From an uncultured Bryobacterales bacterium (lineage in GTDB: Bacteria; Acidobacteriota; Terriglobia; Bryobacterales; UBA6623): a DNA stretch of 10,258 nucleotides. The position numbers and the translations under genes were made by a program. How positions within the stretch are numbered: position 1 is the stretch's first letter; each line of letters begins with the position of its first letter. Shown here one piece after another: positions 1 to 10,258 of this stretch. The DNA lies in assembly GCA_946887065.1 (NCBI GenBank), contig CAMPKL010000078.1:1-10258 (forward strand). Direction: 5' to 3'. The notes beneath the pieces were generated by a model. The model searched no databases and was not told the origin of the DNA. It saw only the letters and a program-made list of their open reading frames with translations.

Positions 1-59
1 GGTTGTTTAGAGCACGTAAGCGAGCGCTGAAAGCTTACGAGGCGTTGAAAAAGCGATGA
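1..59 (+). CDS. ECF-type RNA polymerase sigma factor, C-terminal tail (partial)
   Basis: Reading from base 3, the frame gives 18 residues, LFRARKRALKAYEALKKR, and a TGA stop at 57-59. The pattern of leucines and basic residues resembles the end of sigma region 4.2 of extracytoplasmic-function sigma factors, where the last helix typically reads L.RAR..L. The gene begins outside the window, so promoter-recognition residues cannot be checked. The downstream pair of a single-pass membrane protein and a Spy/CnrX-like protein, spaced 3 bases and then overlapping, supports a sigma-factor operon. The call rests on a very short tail plus context. Confidence 0.55.
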   Translation, partial: LFRARKRALKAYEALKKR

Positions 60-62
60 TGA

Positions 63-428
63 ATGGTTAGTATTTGGGCGGTGGCTGTGATTAAAGTGAA
101 CACGGAACAAGAATTGGACAAGTTGTTTGCGGCGTCGCGGGATGCGTTCCCGGAGTTGGACGCTTCGCCCAATTTTCTGCCTGAGGTTTGGGCCAAGATC
201 GAAGATCGGCGAGCCCCCGGTTGGTTGACGTTGATCGGCAACTGGTCTCCTCGCCTGGCCCTCGCCGCCAGCTTGGCGGCGGCGGTGCTCACGACGACTG
301 CGGCGATCAATCACCAAAGGGTTCGCGACATGCAGCTTTTGGAATCGAGTTACATTGATGCGCTGACGGTTTCCTCCCTTGATGAGCAGGACGGATCGCA
401 GTGGATCCTGGCTGGTTTGCCGCGATGA
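63..428 (+). CDS. Small single-pass membrane protein, possible anti-sigma factor
   Basis: A 121-residue protein with an acidic hydrophilic N-terminal part of about 65 residues, one membrane segment at about residues 68-84 (LALAASLAAAVL core), and a short external tail of about 37 residues. It begins 3 bases after the sigma factor stop and its stop overlaps the next start (ATGA at 425-428). Size, topology and position fit a non-zinc anti-sigma factor such as the CnrY type, which holds a sigma factor at the membrane; there is no HxxxCxxC zinc motif. The start is uncertain: ATG 63 has no good ribosome site and gives a hydrophobic beginning, while GTG 87 gives a hydrophilic start reading MIKVNTEQELDKLF. 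The function is inferred from context only. Confidence 0.6.
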   Translation: MVSIWAVAVIKVNTEQELDKLFAASRDAFPELDASPNFLPEVWAKIEDRRAPGWLTLIGNWSPRLALAASLAAAVLTTTAAINHQRVRDMQLLESSYIDALTVSSLDEQDGSQWILAGLPR

Positions 429-835
429 TGAATCAATCGAGGACGAGAGCCGGCCTGTACCTTGCTGCGGTATTTATCGCGGGCAGCGCCTTTGGTTTCT
501 CCATGAGTCAGTTTTACTCGCAGCCGATCGCCGAAGCGGGCGTGGACGCGGCTGCCGCCTATCGCCGCGACTTGCTTCATTCGCTGGACGAAAGACTGGA
601 TCTGAGCGACGAGCAATTGGGCGAGGTCATCGTGATTTTCGACGAGATCAACGACAGGTTTCGGGAAGTTCGCGATGCCATGGAGCCGGAGTTCGAGGCC
701 ATTCGCAGCGAGCGCGCCGAGCGCGTAATGGGCTTGCTCAACCCCCAGCAGAAGGCGGAATACCAATTGATGCTAGATGAGCGTCAACGTGCCCGTGAAG
801 AGAAGGCCGGCCAGCACAGCGAGCAACACAAGTAG
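425..835 (+). CDS. Spy/CpxP/CnrX-like periplasmic helical sensor protein
   Basis: A 136-residue protein with an N-terminal signal anchor (about residues 9-27) and an all-helical periplasmic part. It shows the family pattern LDLSDEQ near residue 60, a charged middle helix, then LLNPQQKAEY near residue 105, like the LtxxQ-type motifs of Spy, CpxP and the 'periplasmic heavy-metal sensor' family. These proteins act as chaperones or as sensors that modulate an anti-sigma factor. ATG 425 (Met-Met start) overlaps the stop of the preceding gene by 4 bases, implying coupled translation. The paired His ligands known for CnrX are not obvious; the only histidines past the anchor are H52 and two near the C-terminus (about 131 and 135), so metal sensing is not shown. 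Confidence 0.75.
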   Translation: MMNQSRTRAGLYLAAVFIAGSAFGFSMSQFYSQPIAEAGVDAAAAYRRDLLHSLDERLDLSDEQLGEVIVIFDEINDRFREVRDAMEPEFEAIRSERAERVMGLLNPQQKAEYQLMLDERQRAREEKAGQHSEQHK

Positions 836-875
836 TCCGCAGCGAGTCTTTGATTCATCGAGCGCCCGAGCCAGC

Positions 876-1742
876 ATGCATAATCGTAGCCGCACAATTT
901 GGATTGCGGCGATCGTTTCGTTAGCGTTCGCAGGGATATTGCTTCATCCTGCGGCGCGAACGCGTTTCGGCTGGTTCGCTTCCGGTATCCGCTCGGAATC
1001 GGTTCGGGAGCAGGTCTACGCCTTGACTGGACCGCAGCCGGAAGCGTGGGTCCGCGAGATTGTTTTTCCGGAGACAGAGCCCACCAGCCGCAGCCGGGAA
1101 GTCTACTTCGACGCGCCCACCGAGACGTGTGAGGAGTTTAGCGCTTACGTGTTCTTCTTGCCGCCAGGCGAGACGCCGTTGCAGCCGCACAAGCACGTCG
1201 AGGACGAGTTGATCGTGCCGATCGAGAGCCAATTAGACGTACTGACAACGGACTCGCGAGGCCCGCTCACCGAGCACGTCGGTACCGGCAAAGTCGTTTT
1301 CAATGCGGCCGAACAGACTCACGCGATCAGCCGCTTGTCGGACGAACGCGCAAGTTATCTCGTGCTGAAGTGGAAGAGCCGCAACCCGCAGCCGTTCGAG
1401 GCCGCACTAGGTTCGGCGGTCTTCGACATCCACAAGCTGCACCGCCATCAGTTGAAGGGCGAGCAACGTCCGTTCAAGGCCGACACCATCTTCGAAGGCG
1501 CCACCCGCAGCCTCAAGAAGTTGCACAGCCATGCCAGCACGCTGGCGCCCGGAGCCGGCTATCCGGCGCAAGAGGATCCAATCGATATCGCCATCGTGCT
1601 GTTACGCGGCGAAGTCGAGACGCTAGGGCAAAAGGCGACAGCGCCAGCGGTGTTCTTCTACCCGGCTGGACGGCCGCACGGATTGCGGAATGTGGGCGTT
1701 GATCCCGCTCAGTATGTGGTTTTCGAGTTCCACGGCCGCTGA
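876..1742 (+). CDS. Membrane-anchored double-cupin protein
   Basis: A 288-residue protein with an N-terminal hydrophobic anchor (about residues 8-23) and two cupin-like beta-barrel regions. The first (about 75-170) carries the metal-ligand pattern G98, H105-x-H107 and E111, followed by a second-motif histidine, H149 (EQTHAI). The second (about 180-285) has H217/H219, the turn LLRGEVE and PAGRPHGLRNVG, but its first motif is degenerate (PAQEDP where H-x-H is usual). Cupins of this sort bind metal or small ligands; no substrate can be read from the sequence. I chose ATG 876 because the hydrophobic anchor begins just after it; an upstream in-frame ATG at 777 would overlap the previous gene by 59 bases. 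It lies 40 bases downstream of the Spy-like gene and may be co-transcribed. Confidence 0.72.
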   Translation: MHNRSRTIWIAAIVSLAFAGILLHPAARTRFGWFASGIRSESVREQVYALTGPQPEAWVREIVFPETEPTSRSREVYFDAPTETCEEFSAYVFFLPPGETPLQPHKHVEDELIVPIESQLDVLTTDSRGPLTEHVGTGKVVFNAAEQTHAISRLSDERASYLVLKWKSRNPQPFEAALGSAVFDIHKLHRHQLKGEQRPFKADTIFEGATRSLKKLHSHASTLAPGAGYPAQEDPIDIAIVLLRGEVETLGQKATAPAVFFYPAGRPHGLRNVGVDPAQYVVFEFHGR

Positions 1743-1743
1743 T

Positions 1744-1772
1744 TTGCGCCGCTGTGCCTTACATGCTACATT
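1744..1772 (+). promoter_or_regulatory. Candidate sigma-70-type promoter for tRNA-Asp
   Basis: TTGCGC at 1744-1749 and TACATT at 1767-1772 are separated by exactly 17 bases and lie just after the cupin stop, about 85 bases before the tRNA. Each box matches the E. coli consensus at four of six positions. It is the best promoter-like pair I see in this gap, but it is weak evidence by eye. Confidence 0.3.
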
Positions 1773-1856
1773 CGAATTTGTGCGCTCTTGGCGGGCGTAT
1801 CAGCCGTAAGTCTTCGTTCGTCCGAGTCGACCCTCGCGACTCGATTCAAAGAATAC

Positions 1857-1911
<55 letters not shown>

Positions 1912-1933
<22 letters not shown>

Positions 1934-2436
1934 CTGCTTTCCATCCCTTGCGAAGCCCGATCAGGCTCGTCTTTTCTCGGAGGCATCACTTCTGTTGAGT
2001 CGATCGGCAGCATCCAGACGTGCTCTTCCGCCCACCGTGCGGCGAGTCCGTTCAGCGGACTCTTTGTGTTGTACTCCTGATAGGCGATCATCCTGCCGAT
2101 CCGGACGACCAGGTCTTCGAGGCGCTCCGCAGGCGCCCAAAAATCCCCGATGCACACGCTTGTCTCATCGAAGTTGGGATGAAAAACAGCGTTGAGCATT
2201 TTGCACTGGGGAGCGCGCCGCGGGTAACCCAGCGAGAGATTCACTTCCAGCACGTGTTCGTCCCTTTCGACGATCTGGCGATCTGGCGAAAGAACGAGAC
2301 CCTTGATTCGATAGGTGAAGCGGTAGAACTCCGGCGGCATTCCCGACTTGCCGGAGATTTGGACGACCGGCCAGTCGGCAAACCGCTTAACGAGCCGCTC
2401 ATAGTCGTTGCGCAAACGTCGAACTCGGGGAGTCAT
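1912..2436 (-). CDS. E2-like ubiquitin-conjugating enzyme (UBC fold)
   Basis: A 174-residue protein with the layout of a UBC-fold E2. It has an N-terminal helix (about residues 3-20, RVRRLRNDYERLVKRF), the central sheet with the YPRRAPQCKM segment equivalent to the E2 'YPxxPP' loop, the HPN tripeptide at 86-88, the predicted thioester cysteine at C95 (TSVCIG) and W100 with a following proline. It should take the Ubl from the E1 by transthiolation and pass it to a lysine. The start at ATG 2436 overlaps the DUF2752 stop by 4 bases; no Shine-Dalgarno sequence precedes it (a pyrimidine-rich stretch instead), so translation probably depends on re-initiation. A reading-frame extension upstream to 2757 lies inside the DUF2752 gene and shows no domain. 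The stop at 1912-1914 lies inside the antisense of tRNA-Asp. The C-terminal 25 residues are polar and probably disordered. Confidence 0.88.
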
Positions 2437-2864
2437 GGCGCGAGGAGTAGGAAGGGATAGACCGGAATGTTCCGCGCCGCGGCAAACAATACCGCCAAAG
2501 CCAAAGCAGGTCCGGTCCACTCGTCGAATCGTATCGGACGTCCCCGGTAGAGTGTCCATGCGAACCACGCGCAGGCGGGCGGCGAGAAAATCGTCAACAG
2601 GGCGTTGTACGAGAGCGCAGCCGCGATCCGCCCGTGGAGGATCTCGTGGAGGGCTCGAAACCCTCCGCAGCCCGGACAATAGAGGCCGGTTGCCGTAAAC
2701 CACCAGCAACTCGGGTAGAACCCTGATTCGCCTGGCGGATGGGCGTACACGACCCACAGGGCCAGGAGCCCGGCCGCAGCGCCGAGCAGAGCCACAATTC
2801 GTCCGCTGGAGATCTTCGAGATCGTCGTCGGATTCTTGAGAACGTTTGATGAGTTCAGCGTCAT
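2433..2864 (-). CDS. DUF2752 membrane protein
   Basis: A 143-residue protein with hydrophobic segments at about residues 23-41, 86-105 and 117-140. It carries the DUF2752 signature between them: C53, then CPGCGG with C63 and C66, followed by FRALHEILHGRIAAAL. The family is widespread in bacteria and its function is not known; the Cys-x2-Cys pair after the first helix could bind metal or form a disulfide. It overlaps the stop of the upstream GYF_2 gene (ATGA at 2861-2864) and the start of the E2 gene (ATGA at 2433-2436), so it is translated in step with both. A tie to the ubiquitin-like pathway is inferred purely from this embedding. Confidence 0.85.
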   Translation of the reverse strand: MTLNSSNVLKNPTTISKISSGRIVALLGAAAGLLALWVVYAHPPGESGFYPSCWWFTATGLYCPGCGGFRALHEILHGRIAAALSYNALLTIFSPPACAWFAWTLYRGRPIRFDEWTGPALALAVLFAAARNIPVYPFLLLAP

Positions 2865-3469
2865 CCTTTATTGATCTCGTTGAAATGGTACTGCAAGTAA
2901 ATGATGTTGAAGAAGAACGTCATCGGACCGCTGAGCGGACGGTTAAAGTACGCCTCGACGGAACCTTTGAGCTTGAAATATGCCACCAAGTAGCAGACGA
3001 TGCCCGCAATCGACATGAGTCCGCTTAGGGCGATGAGGGTTTCGTTCTCCGTGAATATCACGATATTCGATCCGAGCGATACCGCGATGTAAACGCAGAG
3101 AAGAACTGTCGGCGTGCTGTCCGGATCGAACTTTTTCACCCAGGCAGCCTGCACAAAGCACCAGACAAACGCGAATAGACCGCACGTCGTCCACGAAAGA
3201 ACCAGTACCCACGCCCAGTGCAGCTTCGGCGCGGGGGGAATCTCAATCGAGCCGTCGCCGCTCGATAGGGAGTCGGCCGTCAACCTTGAGGCGCCCGGCG
3301 CCGATACCTCGATATTGCCGACAACCTCCGACACAGGAGCCCAATCGGTCATCCCTTCACTCTGCGCAAGATCGTCGGGAGCTATCCTGCGTTCCGCGAC
3401 ATAGCGCTTTAATTCTTCGAGCGTGTAGGGTCCGAATTGTTCATCCCCTCGCTTAACGAAATACTTCAC
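2861..3469 (-). CDS. GYF_2-domain multi-pass membrane protein
   Basis: A 202-residue protein starting with a GYF_2 (DUF4339) domain at residues 1-50: an initial KYFVKRGDEQFGPYTLEEL strand-and-helix unit, then the SEGMTDWAPVSEV ending typical of the family. A linker (51-82) leads to three or four membrane segments, at about 84-108, 120-138, 143-165 and perhaps 182-195. GYF domains bind proline-rich peptides in eukaryotes; here the neighbouring RING protein has a long proline-rich linker (APIAPPPFPRGGPP), a possible partner (inference). GTG 3469 is the start, supported by a strong ribosome site AAAGGAG five bases upstream. It lies 34 bases after the RING gene. Confidence 0.82.
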   Translation of the reverse strand: MKYFVKRGDEQFGPYTLEELKRYVAERRIAPDDLAQSEGMTDWAPVSEVVGNIEVSAPGASRLTADSLSSGDGSIEIPPAPKLHWAWVLVLSWTTCGLFAFVWCFVQAAWVKKFDPDSTPTVLLCVYIAVSLGSNIVIFTENETLIALSGLMSIAGIVCYLVAYFKLKGSVEAYFNRPLSGPMTFFFNIIYLQYHFNEINKG

Positions 3470-3474
3470 GGCTT

Positions 3475-3481
3475 CTCCTTT
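3475..3481 (-). promoter_or_regulatory. Ribosome binding site fixing the GTG start of the GYF_2 gene
   Basis: AAAGGAG on the minus strand sits 5 bases before GTG 3469. It lies in the only open gap (34 bases) between genes in the second half of the operon, so this gene appears to have its own ribosome entry rather than relying on coupling. Confidence 0.7.
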
Positions 3482-3503
3482 GGCGCCGAATCCATCGCTC
3501 TAC

Positions 3504-4112
3504 CTAGACCATCCTTCGTCCCGCAGCATCGCGTTCAATGACGAAGCAATCCACGATCGCCCAAATCCAAACGATTGGCGACAGCAACAGGAACGAGACG
3601 CAGGTAATTGTCAGCTGCGCTCCTGCTCTCCGCGTGCGGTCCGCGTAGAAATTGTGTGCGCCGAACGCGCCCAGGAATATCGCTAAAAGGATGTACGAAA
3701 TGCGTTCCTTGGGCTTCGGCGCGCTAGCCGAAACTTTCAGCCGAACCGGCCTCGAAACGAACACGGATCCAGGCCCGCCGAAGGACGGCATATCCAAACG
3801 GGGTTCAGGCTCAACAGTCGCCGCCGGCGGCCCTCCGCGCGGGAAGGGCGGCGGTGCTATCGGCGCCTCTCGCGGGGGCGCGGGCCGCGTTTCGGATTCC
3901 TCGCATTGCGAGGACGGTATCGCTTGTTCGATCTCCGAGGCGTGCACCCTCAGCTTGAGTTCCTCCACGGGCGTCAGCTTACAGCCAAAAACCGTACAGC
4001 CGCCGTTCTCCTCCCAACATTCGCGATGGACAATAGAGGCGCATTCCGGGCACTCGGTCACTTCGTCACCGGCGGAGACATCGGTTAGACAATAGGGGCA
4101 AGTCGTATCCAC
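3504..4112 (-). CDS. RING/PHD-like zinc-finger protein fused to a TM2 membrane domain (candidate E3)
   Basis: With the GTG start at 4112 the protein has 202 residues. Residues 5-44 hold eight evenly placed ligands in C4-H-C3 order: C5-x2-C8, C21-x2-C24, H29-x2-C32, C39-x4-C44. This matches the binuclear treble-clef fold of the prokaryotic RING families found beside E1/E2 genes. After a helix (about 46-65) and a proline-rich linker (about 75-110) comes a TM2 domain at about 138-193: hydrophobic helix with FLGAFGAHNFYADRTRRAG turn, then second helix ending IVDCF. TM2 places both ends in the cytoplasm, so the finger would face the E2. The start is uncertain: ATG 4178 would overlap the FHA gene by 56 bases, whereas GTG 4112 begins 10 bases after its stop. 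E3 activity is inferred. Confidence 0.85.
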   Translation of the reverse strand: MDTTCPYCLTDVSAGDEVTECPECASIVHRECWEENGGCTVFGCKLTPVEELKLRVHASEIEQAIPSSQCEESETRPAPPREAPIAPPPFPRGGPPAATVEPEPRLDMPSFGGPGSVFVSRPVRLKVSASAPKPKERISYILLAIFLGAFGAHNFYADRTRRAGAQLTITCVSFLLLSPIVWIWAIVDCFVIERDAAGRRMV

Positions 4113-4122
4113 AGCGGCCCCG

Positions 4123-5184
4123 TTAGTCTCTCGCCCGCTCCTGGTAGAGGAACCGGTATCTTCCCACCGCGACGACATCTCCGTGGTTCAGGCGCCGCTC
4201 TCGCGCCGTCACGCCTCCCACGTCAACCGCACCGATCGGACGCAGCCAAGTCGTCGCGCCGCGAAGGCCAAATTCCAGGTGCAGGGGTTGGATGTCAGGA
4301 TCCTTGAACAGGTAGATATCGCAGGTCTGCAAGCTGCCCGCGGAGGTTATGGGCTTGTACAGAATGAACTGTTTGCCGGAGAGGGGTCCCGAGATCACCA
4401 GCAGCCACCGGTCCTTCAGCGCGCTCTCCACCCAACCCATGGCAATTCCCGTCGAGGCTCCGAACAGGCTGAAACCTACCGCGCGGCTAACTTCCGCCCC
4501 CTCTAGCGCCAGGCTAATTGGGTCGAAGACCAATCCTCCAACTGCGGCTCCAATCACCCCTCCCAAGATGCCGTACTGTCCGCGCTTGAATGAACCGCCG
4601 ATCAATCCGTACGCGAGGCCTGCCGCGGTTCCGAGTACCGTCCAAGCAATTCCCCGCGCCAACCAAAACGCCGGATTATCCACTTCGGCAATCCCGGCTG
4701 CAGCCGCCAACCCGGTCGTAATTGTGAATACAACGTTCGCCACGGCGTCAAACAGGAATCCGAGCACGACGCCAACGACGAGCGCCAGAGCGCCGCGATA
4801 CAGCGCTTTGCGCGGAGACTGCTCGACGATGCTTTCAGCGACGGCGAATCCGAAGCACATCAATACCACCGCTAAGGGGATCAGCCAGAAATTGCCCCAT
4901 GCCCCTGACGAATCTCCGTCCTCGAAGGAAGGCTCGCAGATCGCCCAGGCGGCGAACGCGCCCAATAGACCCGCGACTCCGAGATAGAACCAGCCCTTCA
5001 TGTAGAGCTTCTCCGCGGCCTCGGTTCCGATTTCCAGACGCGTCGTCTGCAAGTCGCTCACATTCCCGTAGGTTCGCCCAGCCTGGCCTTGGGCGACGGC
5101 GGCCGCTGCGGGGGACCCTTGGACGAGAGCGCCGCTGCCTTCCAGGTCGTCTAGCGTGATCTTGATCTTCGCCTCGTCACTCAT
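4123..5184 (-). CDS. Polytopic membrane protein with C-terminal FHA-like domain
   Basis: A 353-residue protein. Residues 1-60 are polar, about six or seven glycine/alanine-rich membrane segments follow (roughly 64-82, 98-119, 130-147, 178-197, 203-220, 232-250, with a possible extra one near 150-165), and an FHA-like beta domain occupies about 259-353 (LLVISGPLSGKQFIL strand, the CDIYLFKDPDIQPLH core, and the C-terminal HGDVVAVGRYRFLYQ strands). FHA domains bind phosphothreonine, but the usual GR...S and SxxH residues are altered here (AGSLQ; QPLH keeps only the His), so phosphopeptide binding is doubtful. ATG 5184 has a strong ribosome site (GGGGGAGA) and overlaps the JAB stop by 4 bases. 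Its role in the pathway is unknown; it could be a membrane scaffold. Confidence 0.8.
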   Translation of the reverse strand: MSDEAKIKITLDDLEGSGALVQGSPAAAAVAQGQAGRTYGNVSDLQTTRLEIGTEAAEKLYMKGWFYLGVAGLLGAFAAWAICEPSFEDGDSSGAWGNFWLIPLAVVLMCFGFAVAESIVEQSPRKALYRGALALVVGVVLGFLFDAVANVVFTITTGLAAAAGIAEVDNPAFWLARGIAWTVLGTAAGLAYGLIGGSFKRGQYGILGGVIGAAVGGLVFDPISLALEGAEVSRAVGFSLFGASTGIAMGWVESALKDRWLLVISGPLSGKQFILYKPITSAGSLQTCDIYLFKDPDIQPLHLEFGLRGATTWLRPIGAVDVGGVTARERRLNHGDVVAVGRYRFLYQERARD

Positions 5185-5909
5185 CTCGATATCTCCCCCT
5201 TCAGCGGCGCCAGGATCAAGACGGGTCTCCCCTGCGAGTCCAGCACGATCGCTCCGCCGGACGGCAAAAGCAGCAGCAGGATTCCGATCGTCAAAACGCA
5301 TCCAAGCACGAATGCTAGTGCGTACTTGGTTGCCGCCACCCAGCGAGAACGTCCGCGAGCGCCGCCGGAAGGCGCCTCGGCGCGGAGCGTCTCCGGCGTC
5401 GCGGCGGTCCTTGGCTCGATCCGCATCTTGTCGTCGCTTGGTGCATCGTTCTTTTCGAAGGTCGACACAATCTTGTTCAGGCGTTGAATGCGGCCTTCGG
5501 CCCAACCGAAGCAGCCTTCTTCGTCGCTGTGCGGATCGTAGACCCACGCGATCTGCTCGGGGCTTGAGAAGAAGTTCTCATGAACGAATATGTCGTGGTC
5601 AGAAAGAAAAATCCCGAAACCGGGATGCGAATGGTACCAACCGACGATCTTGTCGTCCGGGTATTTCTCGTCCTTGATCTTGTAGATGTGCTCCCAGGTC
5701 TCGTGCGTGAAGGTCACATGGGCAGTGCCCTGGCCCGCGCCCACCCCGGGGATGGATGCATCCACGCGTACTCCGTTCGGCGCATGGCGGCCGATGAGAA
5801 CCCCGCAAACTTCCTCTTCCAGGGATCCACGGGCGTGCCGCCGGACGCGGCGCAGCACTTCACCGCTGATTTCGACTTCCGGACCTCGCTTCGAAAGGTT
5901 GCGGTCCAT
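5181..5909 (-). CDS. JAB/MPN metalloisopeptidase with C-terminal membrane anchor (deubiquitinase-like)
   Basis: A 242-residue protein. The JAB/MPN domain (about residues 8-150) has a complete JAMM site: Glu at 32/33 (EEEVCGVLIG), H93-S-H95, then seven residues to S103 and D106 (SDHD). These bind the catalytic zinc of Rpn11- and AMSH-like isopeptidases. A variable linker is followed by one membrane segment (about 196-218) with basic residues before it (RGRSRW), which puts the enzyme domain in the cytoplasm, and a short outside tail. It should cut the Ubl off targets; precursor trimming is unlikely to be needed because the Ubl ends in Gly. ATG 5909 starts 5 bases after the E1 stop; the start fits the domain edge. 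The stop overlaps the FHA-like gene start (ATGA). Confidence 0.92.
   Translation of the reverse strand: MDRNLSKRGPEVEISGEVLRRVRRHARGSLEEEVCGVLIGRHAPNGVRVDASIPGVGAGQGTAHVTFTHETWEHIYKIKDEKYPDDKIVGWYHSHPGFGIFLSDHDIFVHENFFSSPEQIAWVYDPHSDEEGCFGWAEGRIQRLNKIVSTFEKNDAPSDDKMRIEPRTAATPETLRAEAPSGGARGRSRWVAATKYALAFVLGCVLTIGILLLLLPSGGAIVLDSQGRPVLILAPLKGEISR
5192..5200 (-). promoter_or_regulatory. Strong ribosome binding site of the FHA-like gene
   Basis: AGGGGGAGA on the minus strand lies 7 bases before ATG 5184 inside the end of the JAB gene. It decides the start of the FHA-like protein against the long upstream open frame, which shadows the JAB gene. Confidence 0.7.
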
Positions 5910-5914
5910 TTCCC

Positions 5915-7144
5915 TTAACCTGACGAACTCGCGTCGGCGCCGCCCGCCAGCGGCCCCAAGACACGCTTCGCATCCGCTGCGAAAAGATAGGAGACCTCGT
6001 CGGACGCGGAGCGCGCCGTGACGCAGTCGTAAAGCGGCAGGCCGACCTCGCTCCAGCGTTTGCCGCCCAGCGGTCCTGAGCCGTCGTAGGAGTGCTGCAC
6101 GATCGCCTCGCGGACCGTACCGTCTCGCGAGCACCTTCCTTGCTCCAACGAGACGGCGCCCACCGGAGCCAACGTTTCCTCTTCTTCGCCGCATTGTGGG
6201 CACCGAAGCTTCCAGATCACGTCCCGGCTAAACTCCAGCACGATCTCAACGGCATCGAGATCTTGTTGAGCTCTCTCGAAGAGCCGGGATAGGGTCCAAT
6301 CTTCGGATGCTCCTTCTAGATTCTTCGGCGCCGGAGCTGAGTAGTGACTCATGCACTCTTCCGTCTCCGTGTACTCGACGACGTACGACGTATGGTGAGT
6401 TCCCTCGAAGACGTAACCCTTCCCCGCCAGCACCGGCTGACCGTGGATCAGCTTCACGGCCTCCTGCACCTGCACCCCGCCGATGATCGAAGCGATCGTC
6501 GGCGTCGTCGGCGTGCGGCCGCCCTCGATCTCGGTCCTGGTCAATAGATTGCATGACAAGCGATTCGCAAGAATCCGCCAGTCGACTTCGCCCAGCGTGC
6601 ACTCATAGCAGGGCGGGCTGCCGGGCAGAAAGACCCGCGCGACGCCCGAGAGTCCTTCGATGGCGCCGTCGATCCACGGCCGGTTCATCTTCCAGCAACT
6701 ACGGTTGATCCACAATCTCGCTTCGCGATTGTCCAAACCAGCCAGGACCACGTCGGCCCAGGAGAAAACCCCGAGGCCGACATCGTGCAGAATGCTGCCA
6801 TTGATGAAGTGCACCACAGCGTCTTCGTAGATTTCTTGGGTCGCGGCCGCAGCCGTCGCCGCCTTGGGCGCACCGACGTCCGCTGGCCGGTACAAGACGC
6901 TCCGCGATAGATTCGACAGTTCGATCCGGTCCATGTCGACCACGAGAATCTGCCGGAATCCCAATAGCGCCAGGTTCTTCAGGATCTCGTTGCCCAGAGC
7001 GCCCGCTCCAACAACCACAACTTTCGTTCGGGAGATGATCGACTGATCCCACCACTGGATCAGGCCCAATCGGTCGAAGCGGTCGCCGCCCAGATCGCCG
7101 AGGCCAACAGGCAGCGTCCCTCCATCTTGCGCAAAGGTTGTCAT
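5915..7144 (-). CDS. E1-like ubiquitin-activating enzyme (ThiF/MoeB/UBA3 family)
   Basis: A 409-residue protein. The ThiF Rossmann domain has the ATP loop G46-A-G48-x2-G51, then VVDMDRIELSNLSR (D70/D72, N78, R81), K94 and D138-N139. The next part is UBA3-like: EGLSGVARVFLPGSPPCYEC with C179-x2-C182, then C198 (LSCNLL) 16 residues later, the position of the catalytic thioester cysteine, and TIASIIGGVQVQEAVKLIHG. A second pair, C315-x2-C318 (LRCPQCG), could complete the structural zinc as in UBA3, or with C338 form a separate zinc ribbon. The C-terminal 165 residues are unlike MoeB and may serve as an E2-binding domain. It should adenylate the Ubl C-terminus and form a thioester. ATG 7144 overlaps the Ubl stop (ATGA). 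Confidence 0.93.
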   Translation of the reverse strand: MTTFAQDGGTLPVGLGDLGGDRFDRLGLIQWWDQSIISRTKVVVVGAGALGNEILKNLALLGFRQILVVDMDRIELSNLSRSVLYRPADVGAPKAATAAAATQEIYEDAVVHFINGSILHDVGLGVFSWADVVLAGLDNREARLWINRSCWKMNRPWIDGAIEGLSGVARVFLPGSPPCYECTLGEVDWRILANRLSCNLLTRTEIEGGRTPTTPTIASIIGGVQVQEAVKLIHGQPVLAGKGYVFEGTHHTSYVVEYTETEECMSHYSAPAPKNLEGASEDWTLSRLFERAQQDLDAVEIVLEFSRDVIWKLRCPQCGEEEETLAPVGAVSLEQGRCSRDGTVREAIVQHSYDGSGPLGGKRWSEVGLPLYDCVTARSASDEVSYLFAADAKRVLGPLAGGADASSSG

Positions 7145-7410
7145 CCGGCCGTGATTTCCGGTTGCAAACGCAAGATGTCCCCGCTTTTCACGCCCGCAGA
7201 TTCCAACGTCTGGGCATCCTGAATCTGACGCCCTGAATTCTTGTGATGAAACTTGTAACTCAGCGGAGCGCCGTCCGGCCCATGGCGCGGTAACGACAGC
7301 TTGTCGACAAGCACGGCGATCGTCTTGTTCGCCGGCGCCTCACTGGGAACTTCCACGGCGACCCGCTTGTTCTCCGTGGAATCCACTACGGTGATTTCAA
7401 TCGTTGGCAT
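7141..7410 (-). CDS. Ubiquitin-like protein (YukD/beta-grasp type)
   Basis: An 89-residue protein with ubiquitin-fold order: strand MPTIEITVVD, second strand KRVAVEVP, helix about residues 28-40 (NKTIAVLVDKLSL), strand SYKFHHKNSG, the Q-x-L turn (QIQDAQTLESAGVKSGD, like ubiquitin's 'QTLADYNI..' segment) and final strand DILRLQ. It ends LQPEITAG, so the last residue is an exposed glycine suited to activation without trimming; ubiquitin itself has Gly-Gly. The helix and end resemble the YukD/EsaB branch. It directly precedes the E1 gene with a 4-base overlap and follows the protease stop as TAATG. The ribosome site AAGAGGA just upstream supports ATG 7410. No membrane segment. Confidence 0.88.
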   Translation of the reverse strand: MPTIEITVVDSTENKRVAVEVPSEAPANKTIAVLVDKLSLPRHGPDGAPLSYKFHHKNSGRQIQDAQTLESAGVKSGDILRLQPEITAG

Positions 7411-8657
7411 TATTCCTCTTTTGGGTTCCCGGCGCCGCTCGTTTCATCCCGCGGCGTGGTCTTCGCATTGGATTGCATGGCCGCGAGAAATGCTTCGTAC
7501 TGTTGCTTATCGGCCGGTTCCACGACCCAACCCTCCGGGCGCACGAGTACGTCGGCACTGATCGCGAAGTTCAGGTTCTGCGCGTTGGGTTCGAAGCGCC
7601 GGTCGAGGGTCGAACTAACTAGGCCGACCAAATTGCCGCGCTCGTCCAGAACCGGCCCGCCGCTGCTTCCTGGGCTAATCGGAGCGGTAATTTGAAACGT
7701 GCTGCGGTCGGCTATTCGGGAGATCATGCCGTCGCTCATGCTAAAGAACAACCTCTCCGGGTGTCCCAGGACGTAGACGCGATCGCCTACTGCGACCTCC
7801 TCGAACGCTGCAATCGGCTGTCGAAAGCTCGTTGCCGCTGGGGTGCCGGCCAGCCATAACAATGCCATGTCTAGATCGCTATGGCGGGCGATCACGCGCG
7901 CTTTTGCCATATCTCGCGTATACGAGAACAACAACACTTCGCTGCTGTCGCGGCGCGCAAGCCAGCCGCCTTCGGCGTCCGCCACGTGCCGGTTCGTGGC
8001 GAGGACATATCCATCCGACATGGTTGCGACCAAAAAAGCTGACCCGATCGAAGCATGTTGCAGATACTCGTTCGCCAGTAAGCCGAACTTGGGGACCGGA
8101 GCGACGATAAACAATAGCGGCTTGAACGCTCCAAAAATTTCCGAGGCGCCCAATATCCGGTCTTGCTCAACGGCAGGATAGCCGTCATACATATCCAGCG
8201 ATTGCAGCCTTCCCGAAAACCACGTCGGCGACGCTCCTCTGCTGAGCAGGCCGGCGAGCAGAAGGGAATTCAACAGTCCCGATATCACGAGGAGCGTCGT
8301 TAGATAACTGTTCCATGCGGCTTTCACGACCAGCGGCCGCCGGCGGTTTGCCAGCCGCAAGATCACCGCCGCCGCGCACAGCAGCGGTAGCGCCAAGACG
8401 GTCGGCGCCAAGGCGGCTCGACTCCGCCAAGACGGCTGCCGCGCGTTGGCCTCGACCGCCGACGATGGGAGCATGGGCGGCGCCCCCGTCGACGCACGGG
8501 CGACTTCGTCCGCGCTAATAACCAGTCTTTCGTTCGGGCTCGACACGTGAATCAGAAACGAATAAGCAGGATTAGGCCTATTGAGCCACCAATTGTACAC
8601 TGCGGATCGGACGGATACGACAAATTCAGCCAGACGGCAGAAAATGGCGTCCCCCAT
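7410..8657 (-). CDS. Two-pass membrane trypsin-like serine protease
   Basis: Up to 415 residues. An N-terminal part of about 80 residues is unrecognised; two membrane segments follow (about 84-101 and 119-138) with a basic loop between (RLANRRRPLVVK), then a chymotrypsin-fold protease domain (about 200-375). The triad is intact: H224 (ATNRHVAD), D263 (SDLDMALLWL) and S332 in SPGSSGGPVLD. No PDZ domain is visible, unlike DegP/HtrA. By the positive-inside rule the basic loop is cytoplasmic, which would put the protease outside, but this is not certain. The start is uncertain: ATG 8657 has no well-spaced ribosome site, and GTG 8546 (residue 38) is possible. It is the first gene of the operon and joins the Ubl gene by TAATG. 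Confidence 0.82.
   Translation of the reverse strand: MGDAIFCRLAEFVVSVRSAVYNWWLNRPNPAYSFLIHVSSPNERLVISADEVARASTGAPPMLPSSAVEANARQPSWRSRAALAPTVLALPLLCAAAVILRLANRRRPLVVKAAWNSYLTTLLVISGLLNSLLLAGLLSRGASPTWFSGRLQSLDMYDGYPAVEQDRILGASEIFGAFKPLLFIVAPVPKFGLLANEYLQHASIGSAFLVATMSDGYVLATNRHVADAEGGWLARRDSSEVLLFSYTRDMAKARVIARHSDLDMALLWLAGTPAATSFRQPIAAFEEVAVGDRVYVLGHPERLFFSMSDGMISRIADRSTFQITAPISPGSSGGPVLDERGNLVGLVSSTLDRRFEPNAQNLNFAISADVLVRPEGWVVEPADKQQYEAFLAAMQSNAKTTPRDETSGAGNPKEE
7414..7420 (-). promoter_or_regulatory. Ribosome binding site of the Ubl gene
   Basis: AAGAGGA on the minus strand sits 3 bases before ATG 7410, within the last codons of the protease gene. It gives the small modifier its own strong ribosome entry, fitting the higher copy number a modifier would need. 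Confidence 0.6.
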
Positions 8658-8803
8658 CCCCTAGGCGCAGATGCAAGGGGCGAATTACCCCACCCATCAC
8701 GTCCGTCATTTCCTTCCGATTCCCCTACACCCCTCGGACATATTCGGTTACGGCTGGAGAGTCTTTCTGGTTGAGTCGGCCCCTAAAGGGAGTGCTCAGC
8801 GAC

Positions 8804-9052
8804 ATGCCAAACACCACCACGCGAAGATTTTTCATGGGCGCCGCCGCCGCTGCATCGGCGATGCGCATGTGGGGCGCCAACGACCGCATCAATCTCGCGA
8901 TCGTCGGCCTGGGCGGCCGCGGGTCGGGCCGTCTAACGTCTACTCACAGCTGCCTGTAGGCGCATCGCTAGCCTGAGCAACGTGAACCAGGCGGCGCGGA
9001 CCCCAAGCAATCGAGGATGTGCGCGAAGCGTACGCGGACCCGCATTGCGCCA
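8804..9052 (+). pseudogene. Decayed Gfo/Idh/MocA-type oxidoreductase remnant (Tat signal, N-terminal fragment)
   Basis: ATG 8804 opens 51 codons: a Tat-type signal (TTRRFFMGAAAAASAM) followed by the Rossmann start INLAIVGLGGRGSG, then a stop at 8957-8959. Family-like sequence continues in other frames: NVYSQLP at 8935-8955, CRRIASLSNVNQAAR at 8955-8999, and AIEDVREAYAD at 9007-9039, which match the successive pieces of secreted Gfo/Idh/MocA oxidoreductases. At least three frame changes in 250 bases, and loss of the remaining 300 or so residues, show it is dead. It is oriented away from the ubiquitin-like operon and abuts the permease gene. Similar full-length genes are abundant in Solibacter-type acidobacteria. 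Confidence 0.8.
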
Positions 9053-9076
9053 CTTCAGTTCTTCGCGGCAGTCCCT

Positions 9077-10258
9077 TTACTCGTAGCGCAAGGCCTCAAT
9101 TGGGTCGATCTGAGCAGCCTTGATCGCCGGATAGATGCCGAAGATCACGCCTACGGCCACGGAAACCCCGAATGCGACGACCACCGAAGTCGGCGTGACG
9201 ATGGTATTCCACTCGGCTACCGATGCGATCAGCCAAGACAAGAAGAAGCCGAAGGCGATGCCTAGCAGCCCGCCGCCAATCGAGATCAAGGCTGACTCCG
9301 CCAGGAATTGCCGCACGATATCGACCCGCCGCGCTCCGGTCGCTCGCCGCACACCAATCTCGCGGGTGCGCTCCAAGACCGTCGCTAAGACGATGTTCAT
9401 GATCCCGATGCCGCCCACCAATAGCGAAATCGCCGCGATCGCCACCATCACGTAAGTGAAGATGGTTTGCGTTCGCTGTTGCTGCGCCAGCAGCGCCGCG
9501 GGAATCGTCACGCTGAAATCCTCCTCGCCGTTGTGCGTCGAGTTCAGAACGGCGGTGACGATCTTCGCCGCGACAATGCTGTCCGTCTCGGGCGACAGTC
9601 GCATGTCGATGCCGTCCAAATCGTCCTTCATGTAACTGCTCGTATCCCAGTAGCGGTATTGAAAACTCGTCAGGGGAATGTAGATGCGGTTATTCGGATC
9701 CTCCATCTGGCCGCGCTGACTCGCGCCGCCCGCTCCCGCTCGCTCGTGGAGCACGCCGACTACTCTCAGCCACGTGTCGTTCACCTTGATGAACTTGCCC
9801 AGTGCCGGATCGTAGCCGAGCAGATTGACCTTGGCCCCGGACCCCAGCACGCAAACCGCCGCGCTCATTTCTTCGTGCGCCTTGGTGAAGAAGCCGCCTT
9901 CGCTCGCGTGCAAGCTGTGAATCGCTCCATAAGACGATTGCACGCCGTAGAGTTCCGGCGTGGCTGCCGACGGCTTCGGCAATACCCGCGCAGGGAATAA
10001 TGATCGTCTAGCAGACAATGCCTCCACGCCCGTCACGTTCGCTTCGAGAATGCGCGCATCGCGATCCGTCAGGCCTGGCGACGTTCTTCTGCGCTGCTGC
10101 AATTCTTCGCGGCTCATTGCTGGACGCGACTGCACGAACAGGTTTCTGACGCCCAGCTCTTCGATGAAGCGCAGCGATTCTTCTTGCGCCCCGGCGCCGA
10201 TGGCCAACATACCGATCACCGAGCCCACGCCGAACACGATCCCCAAAGCCGTCAAGAG
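9077..10258 (-). CDS. MacB-type ABC transporter permease, C-terminal part (N-terminus outside window)
   Basis: About 393 residues are visible, beginning within the first membrane helix (LLTALGIVFGVGSVIGMLAI), so the true start lies beyond the window edge. A large periplasmic MacB_PCD domain follows, then the FtsX-like domain with three membrane helices: ISLLVGGIGIMNIVLATV, then REIGVRRATGAR with the second helix (LISIGGGLLGIAFGFFLSWL), and the last helix ending in YPAIKAAQIDPIEALRYE, the hallmark C-terminus of the MacB/YknZ family. These permeases, with a separate or fused ATPase and an adaptor protein, extrude macrolides, peptides or lipids or act as mechanotransmitters. The stop at 9077 converges on the decayed oxidoreductase. 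No link to the ubiquitin-like operon is evident. Confidence 0.93.
   Translation of the reverse strand, partial: LLTALGIVFGVGSVIGMLAIGAGAQEESLRFIEELGVRNLFVQSRPAMSREELQQRRRTSPGLTDRDARILEANVTGVEALSARRSLFPARVLPKPSAATPELYGVQSSYGAIHSLHASEGGFFTKAHEEMSAAVCVLGSGAKVNLLGYDPALGKFIKVNDTWLRVVGVLHERAGAGGASQRGQMEDPNNRIYIPLTSFQYRYWDTSSYMKDDLDGIDMRLSPETDSIVAAKIVTAVLNSTHNGEEDFSVTIPAALLAQQQRTQTIFTYVMVAIAAISLLVGGIGIMNIVLATVLERTREIGVRRATGARRVDIVRQFLAESALISIGGGLLGIAFGFFLSWLIASVAEWNTIVTPTSVVVAFGVSVAVGVIFGIYPAIKAAQIDPIEALRYE

Follow-up and report, generated by a model that had tools for sequence, protein, structure and literature searches.

Does a run of nine genes in an uncultured Bryobacterales bacterium encode a complete ubiquitin-like conjugation pathway, and does that pathway differ from the antiphage operon Bil? 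The question is raised by a 10,258-nucleotide stretch (assembly GCA_946887065.1, contig CAMPKL010000078.1, positions 1 to 10,258), hereafter the window. Pfam assigned nine minus-strand genes between 1912 and 8657, in the order protease, ubiquitin-like protein (Ubl), E1, JAMM, FHA, RING, GYF_2, DUF2752 and E2. The spacing between neighbours, from protease to E2, is −1, −4, +5, −4, −56, +34, −4 and −4 bases, and the preliminary description of one tightly packed operon that includes the protease, FHA, GYF_2 and DUF2752 genes was borne out. The operon encodes a full Ubl/E1/E2/RING/JAMM set with four additional membrane proteins, and we consider it probable that it attaches Ubl reversibly to proteins at the inner membrane. 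We hold the chemistry with good confidence and the biological role with low confidence.

Conservation of the operon

A search with the E2 found 2685 relatives scoring E ≤ 0.001. The E2 alignment was then used to scan species genomes, with peptide patterns that reach close relatives only, and 42 loci were obtained: 31 from Acidobacteriota, 7 from Verrucomicrobiota, 1 from Planctomycetota and 3 unplaced. Carriers include Edaphobacter aggregans DSM 19364, a strain kept in a culture collection, and Acidobacteriaceae bacterium ZG23-2, whose genome sequence is complete. The window E2 had no supported position in the E2 tree. Gene content was counted in the 27 well-covered loci, each with at least 7 kb ahead of E2, using profiles made from the window proteins. 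The order protease-Ubl-E1-JAMM-FHA-RING-(GYF_2)-(DUF2752)-E2 recurred. Ubl, E1, JAMM, FHA, RING and E2 were each found in 27/27 loci, the protease in 25 (counting locus L030, which has no protease domain) and GYF_2 in 23 (21 as a separate open frame, 2 joined to RING). The two loci lacking a protease were L042 and L041, whose contig starts about 1 kb before Ubl. DUF2752 was present in 11/27, and 11/27 loci had all nine families together. Because the core order recurs in Acidobacteriota, Verrucomicrobiota and Planctomycetota, the gene set is more than a chance assembly. The protease, FHA and mostly GYF_2 recur across the well-covered loci and thus belong to the unit, which is a self-contained cassette of six to nine genes.

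The preliminary description had held that all four accessory genes belong to the pathway, unless homologous loci consistently lacked them, and had suggested a scan for conserved neighbourhoods. That scan, now run, showed the core order to be kept in relatives from several phyla, and the relatives did not consistently lack the protease, FHA or GYF_2. The claim therefore stood for these three genes but not for DUF2752, which was considered as a core part and rejected on its 11/27 count; it is an optional member. The claim was weakened further by protease domains that are dead or missing in two loci (L003 and L030) and by FHA domains without the canonical phosphothreonine residues.

Gene structure varied at some loci. 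E1 and JAMM share one open frame in L029 (from 685), by fusion or assembly error, and in L028 the RING gene, like the E1 gene of L032, is divided between two frames. E2 is preceded by two or three GYF_2-type frames in L018, L023 and L032, and also in L010 and L016, which suggests duplication of the GYF_2 module; the L010 frames may be one split gene.

Ubl, E1 and JAMM

The Ubl with a C-terminal Gly was present as described. It is a YukD-type protein of 89 residues (7141..7410, minus strand; PF08817, 1.2e-11) ending in PEITAG, and its gene is the most conserved of the operon, with a mean pairwise identity of 0.81 against 0.37–0.61 for the others. PEITAG was found in 32/32 Ubls; the protein ended there in 21 and continued for 1–6 differing residues in 11. 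Such tails are what one would expect of a precursor that is cut after the Gly. The window Ubl already ends at Gly89 and has no tail.

The JAMM/JAB metalloprotease (5181..5909, minus strand; PF01398, 2.7e-13) carries E33, H93, H95, S103 and D106, in agreement with the isopeptidase proposed earlier. H93, H95, S103 and D106 were kept in 34/34 sequences and E33 in 33/33 rows with letters, and hydropathy placed a C-terminal membrane anchor at 197–215. By sequence, its nearest solved relative was 6fjv (8.3e-12), and the top PDB match for the Ubl was 6fj7, a weak one (E 0.068); we take both to be Caldiarchaeum proteins. In Caldiarchaeum, an Rpn11/JAMM homologue removes a nine-residue Ubl tail (PMC5654768).

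The family assignment of the Ubl opens another explanation, in which it stays unconjugated and serves as a structural component of a type VII-like secretion apparatus. The Ubl matched YukD and, weakly, EccD, and FHA proteins and membrane proteases also occur in type VII systems. Bacillus YukD was reported not to be conjugated (PMC1779556), and for this reason the family name alone is no argument for conjugation. WXG100 proteins scored above the cut-off in only 1/8 operon-bearing genomes (2/8 at E 0.001), and no secretion ATPase was conserved around the loci in the general flank scan, which included no search aimed at FtsK/EssC. The invariant C-terminal Gly with its processable tails also speaks against a purely structural role, and E1, E2 and JAMM are, to our knowledge, not parts of type VII systems. 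We consider a secretion role very improbable.

The E1-like enzyme (5915..7144, minus strand; 409 residues; PF00899, 1e-50) consists of a ThiF domain and a predicted UFD-like C-terminal domain. Both the ATP loop (GAGALGNE) and the candidate catalytic Cys198 named in the preliminary description were found. The Gly loop, C179, C182 and C198 were kept in 32/32 rows with letters, the 33rd row being a fragment, and C264 and H267 in 31/31; C179, C182, C264 and H267 are predicted zinc ligands. C198 stands at what we take to be the catalytic Cys site of UBA5 and Uba4, and, as judged from the alignments, it and C95 of the E2 are the right catalytic candidates. A structural model of the E1 (mean predicted local distance difference test score, pLDDT, 84.4) superposed on eukaryotic E1s, among them one in a loaded SUMO E1-E2 complex, to which 305 residues could be aligned (model 27–391, chain 5–535). 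Because the superposition spans 27–391, the C-terminal domain matches the UFD region; the UFD of E1 enzymes recruits the E2. For both E1 and JAMM, the best solved relatives were eukaryotic and eukaryote-like archaeal enzymes.

The E1 was also related to ThiF/MoeB by sequence matches, as expected if the E1/Ubl pair carried sulfur for making cofactors or amino acids, with the other genes mere neighbours. This explanation is scarcely credible beside an E2 with a full active site, a UFD-like E1 domain and a RING, and none of the nine genes matched a Pfam family of sulfur metabolism.

E2 and RING

The UQ_con E2 (1912..2436, minus strand; PF00179, 7.5e-10) has the expected H86-P87-N88 and Cys95, and all four residues were kept in 43/43 sequences. 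Its second loop is also conserved, with W/Y100 in 43/43 and A101 in 41/43. The RING gene (3504..4178, minus strand) encodes a Prok-RING_1 finger (PF14446, 3.2e-9), a proline-rich linker and a TM2 domain (PF05154, 8.9e-10). The finger scored above the Pfam cut-off, which confirmed the C4HC3 zinc finger described earlier, and its ligands C27, C30, C43, C46, H51, C54, C61 and C66 were present in all of the 36–37 lettered rows (38 rows). Tyr29 occurred in 34/36 and an aromatic residue at position 55 in 35/37; both positions presumably lie near the canonical RING contacts to E2.

Other residues of this interface do not fit a canonical RING-E2 pair. E2 position 73, which we take to be the site of the canonical Phe contacting RING, was R in 41/43 and K in 2/43 sequences, and no basic linchpin after the last RING Cys was conserved in the alignment. 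On these residues, the interface, if any, appears changed on both sides. RING E3 activity is likely but not assured, because of R/K73 in the E2 and the lack of a conserved linchpin in the RING.

More distant E2-like genes, forming a second class with 30–34% identity, were observed in genomes G040, G109, G126, G244, G297, G173 and G094, which belong to the same order as the sample taken around locus L005.

Membrane-associated partners and fusions

Hydropathy analysis found hydrophobic segments in all operon proteins except Ubl, E1 and E2, namely in the protease and the JAMM, FHA, RING, GYF_2 and DUF2752 proteins. The protease (7410..8657, minus strand) is HtrA-like (Trypsin_2, PF13365, 3.3e-20). 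Numbered from 8657, it has strong hydrophobic segments at 82–100 and 119–137, a weaker one at 168–186, and the triad H224, D263 and S332; among lettered rows these residues were kept in 25/26, 27/28 and 27/28, respectively. The loop between its N-terminal helices is positively charged, and the catalytic domain would therefore lie outside. The RING, JAMM and FHA domains would face the cytoplasm.

The FHA protein (4123..5184, minus strand) has six long predicted helices, four of which pass the hydropathy scan, followed by a C-terminal FHA fold. Among the matches listed in a fold search with its model, all fell on the FHA domain. The structural Gly and His of the fold are invariant. At the pocket positions (Gly-Arg and Ser), Arg occurred in 6/37 and Lys in 2/37, and the Ser three before the invariant His in 0/37, suggesting that the domain probably does not read phosphothreonine in the canonical way. 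The GYF_2 protein (2861..3469, minus strand; PF14237, 1.5e-13) has three TM (transmembrane) segments predicted by hydropathy, and DUF2752 (2433..2864, minus strand; PF10825, 8.8e-14) is a membrane protein.

Ten chosen proteins were scanned for additional domains. E2-FHA fusions were found in L001 (5.9e-18) and L030 (9e-14), and RING-GYF_2 fusions in the same two loci (1.8e-10 and 5.1e-10, respectively). These fusions support a joint function of the fused partners. In the RING-GYF_2 protein of L001 (9114–9779), TM2 is replaced by CD225, the interferon-induced transmembrane protein family (1.1e-25). In the L033 E2 a GYF_2 match stayed under the cut-off (0.0045), as did the zinc-ribbon-like or similar matches in the E2s of L003, L035, L036 and L038. 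The RING linker contained PPP in 25/28 loci with a separate GYF_2 gene (the window counted) and in 1/10 loci with no GYF_2 or a fused one; after control for kinship, 2–3 independent contrasts were left, and the association was not significant and not supported.

A linear motif shared by four operon proteins

We identified a short motif of the form hydrophobic-x-hydrophobic-S/T-x-x-D/E-hydrophobic in several operon proteins; in most cases a basic residue lies next to the motif or inside it. In the window it appears as RLVISADEV in the protease N-tail (8502..8528, minus strand) and KIKITLDDL in the FHA protein N-tail (5143..5169, minus strand), and a motif-like segment, KLRVHASEI, follows the RING (3930..3956, minus strand); L014 gives EPKLSISAPDL at the latter place. 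Expected counts were calculated from how often the pattern occurs in flanking proteins (108,523 residues). The motif occurred in 32/32 located FHA N-tails (37 rows; expected 0.41), in 23/25 located protease N-tails (29 rows; expected 0.24) and after the RING in 22/37 located regions (38 rows; expected 0.12). When a leading K/R was required, the counts were 13/33 for FHA, 21/25 for the protease and 21/37 for RING. E2 tails showed a related W-x(2-4)-strand form in 28/42 sequences (expected 1.6; shuffled mean 2.3, maximum 6); in L035, one of these 28, the match lies elsewhere than its motif-like segment GIVITMDEI. At the same place L036 has IVIGEEEL and L039 has IVIRKEEL in their E2 tails.

The motif resembles strand-adding motifs such as SUMO-interaction motifs, and we hypothesise that the Ubl is its receptor. 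Several points reduce the force of this proposal: KLRVHASEI of the window RING resembles the pattern but fails it, the window E2 has no tail motif, the patterns were set after the data had been seen, and the rows of any one family are related. Because of the last two points, the weight of the motif lies in the likeness of four unrelated operon proteins.

The same observations bear on a different target for the Ubl. With the same chemistry, it might act mostly on the membrane complex that the operon itself encodes, as a switch that regulates assembly or the protease, instead of on a wide range of substrates. The cassette is self-contained, with no conserved partners, four of its own proteins carry one motif, and the Ubl is highly conserved, all of which fit self-modification; we nevertheless regard it as quite unlikely.

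Relation to known Ubl operons and to phage defence

Burroughs, Iyer and Aravind are said to have proposed in 2011 (reportedly in Mol BioSyst 7:2261) that YukD-like Ubls are conjugated, and the Prok-RING_1 family of Pfam is reportedly linked to the same work. The Bil operon likewise holds Ubl, E1, E2 and JAMM together. BilABCD has a tandem-Ubl BilA, a BilD with two adenylation domains, a CEHH E2 and four genes without a RING (PMC11354881). The window operon has instead a single 89-residue Ubl domain rather than a tandem, ISG15-like BilA, one ThiF domain in 409 residues, which the BilD model matched only in part, and an HPN E2, a RING and membrane genes. The proposal of a pathway distinct from Bil was thus upheld. 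The RING does set the operon apart from Bil, as had been claimed, but RING-bearing operons are already in print. A 2014 review, with reference to Burroughs et al. 2011, reports relatives of the five-gene Caldiarchaeum RING cluster as operons in Actinobacteria, Planctomycetes and Acidobacteria (PMC4197634); a 2017 report mentions distant E2 and E3 homologues in bacteria, some in complete operons (PMC5654768); and a 2020 report describes a bacterial set of JAB, E1, RING and Ubl-E2 (PMC7159879). The window operon has the features of these RING-bearing prokaryotic operons, namely a Gly-ended Ubl, E1, HPN E2, RING and JAMM, with conjugation itself predicted.

The operon of Caldiarchaeum subterraneum is alike in its tailed Ubl cut by an Rpn11/JAMM homologue, its E1, its E2 and its small RING. 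It differs in being archaeal, in its di-Gly Ub and in a JAMM gene that adjoins on the opposite strand, and the description, as far as available, mentions no protease, FHA, GYF_2 or TM2 partners (PMC5654768). Because related bacterial RING-bearing operons are already in print, we assign the window operon to a known kind; its membrane layer may be undescribed. In the literature within our reach, which left out most subscription papers and preprints, we found no mention of the protease/FHA/GYF_2 layer, the fusions or the shared motif, any of which could be published. The shared motif in the protease, FHA protein, RING and most E2 tails, and the E2-FHA and RING-GYF_2 fusions, are newly seen here.

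Kinship with such operons raises the question of whether this one serves antiphage defence in the manner of Bil or Bub, by tagging phage proteins. Its distribution is patchy, as a defence operon's might be: close E2s (E < 1e-50) occurred in 18/298 sampled genomes of the order of L005, at least 3 of these 18 being carriers already known (25/298 at E 0.001), and in 2/197 sampled genomes of the order of L030, one being the centre genome itself. According to a review, bacterial Ubl operons such as Bil appear to be mainly antiphage (PMC12687455), and a RING-bearing Ubl set was reported within a conflict system (PMC7159879). Single flanking proteins matched PADLOC families, including Argonaute and DNA methyltransferases. 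The flank sample comprised 139 of 292 crude gene calls, of 130–600 residues and at most three per side per locus; 95 PADLOC families were matched, and among the 25 largest viewed none occurred in more than one of the 139 proteins. The 25 commonest of the 111 Pfam families in the flanking proteins included no mobile-element family. The nine proteins themselves gave only partial E1 and JAB matches to PADLOC models.

No conserved flanking gene or upstream element was detected either. No 8-mer occurred in more than 4/24 upstream regions, and seven consensus patterns gave one rpoE-like match (L019) in the same 24 regions; both scans covered the coding strand, and for the window the upstream region was counted from 8538, which differs by a few bases from the preferred protease start. 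No copies of the operon were found in phages or viral contigs, and plasmids gave one distant match of 31%. The Ubl is highly conserved rather than diversifying. Bub operons, which likewise encode bacterial Ubl conjugation, had not been demonstrated to protect from phage, and 219/544 of them are associated with CapW or CapH+CapP regulators and 59 with CapK+CapS (PMC13373217), whereas no conserved upstream gene was seen here. Taken together, a defence role is unlikely.

Phi_1 (phosphate-induced protein) was the commonest flank family, in 7/139 flanking proteins. In the comparison of loci, the only genes outside the operon's own families to recur beside at least four of them formed a local set, the repeated genes after E2 that are common to four acidobacterial loci (L008, L009, L015 and L017).

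Gene boundaries and neighbouring features

The protease gene more probably starts at the GTG at 8546 than at 8657, because its relatives begin just before the EKIVIS motif. The RING gene may start at an alternative GTG (4112), in which case the 56-base overlap between FHA and RING would vanish. The E2 stop codon sits within a convergent tRNA-Asp gene (1857–1933), with an overlap of 22 bases. None of the 42 relatives had a tRNA at the E2 end (0/42), and a tRNA integration site for the operon was rejected; L031 has a tRNA-Ser just ahead of the protease gene, and L020 a tRNA-Glu 9 kb away.

Three further features lie in the window. A short, apparently truncated fragment at 8804–8959 has no Pfam match and resembles, we presume, the twin-arginine start of a Gfo/Idh oxidoreductase. 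A small membrane protein at 401–835, also with no Pfam match, is in our estimation similar to Spy/CpxP-type metal sensors. A MacB/FtsX-type ABC transporter permease (9077–10258) runs off the window edge.

Proposed pathway

We propose the following pathway for reversible attachment of Ubl at the inner membrane. Where a tail exists, the JAMM would trim the Ubl precursor to the invariant Gly89. The E1 would adenylate Gly89 and load the Ubl on Cys198, as its residues and fold suggest, and its UFD-like domain would pass the Ubl to Cys95 of the E2. The TM2-anchored RING would bring the charged E2 to substrates in or near the membrane, and removal of the Ubl would fall to the tail-anchored JAMM. A membrane scaffold is likely to be formed by the FHA protein and the protease, joined by GYF_2 in most acidobacterial versions. 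The strand-type motif that the protease, FHA protein, RING and most E2s share across the family would bind one common partner, for which the Ubl is the likeliest candidate, and the proline-rich linker of the RING may be held by GYF_2.

Several findings weigh against this account. The Ubl ends in a single Gly rather than GlyGly, and E1 residues 197–210, around C198, were modelled with pLDDT below 50. The topology was deduced from hydropathy and loop charge alone, and the third protease segment (168–186), if membrane-spanning, would flip the side on which the catalytic domain lies. No protease was found in the roughly 5 kb on hand for L042. The L003 protease has lost all three triad residues, and in L030 nothing but the N-terminal motif and the helix pair is left, although an assembly error or frameshift may account for the missing protease domain there. 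Because of these two loci, the N-terminal part of the protease may matter by itself. The proline association between RING linker and GYF_2, as noted above, did not survive the kinship control.

Of the possible roles we favour modification of membrane proteins; a role of the pathway in turnover or envelope stress is a guess. More specifically, the SUMO-interaction-like motif on four proteins might dock them all on the Ubl, forming a MARCH/Doa10-like membrane ligase complex with a periplasm-facing protease that acts in membrane-protein turnover rather than phage defence; we offer this tentatively and regard it as doubtful. The proteasome family PF00227 matched in 7/8 operon genomes and in E. coli too, and is uninformative on proteasome coupling because HslV is not separated from the 20S proteasome.

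The presence of all five classical roles of ubiquitin-like conjugation in a bacterium makes RING-driven Ubl transfer, and its placement at the membrane, testable. The shared tail motif offers a specific starting point for studying the assembly of these proteins.

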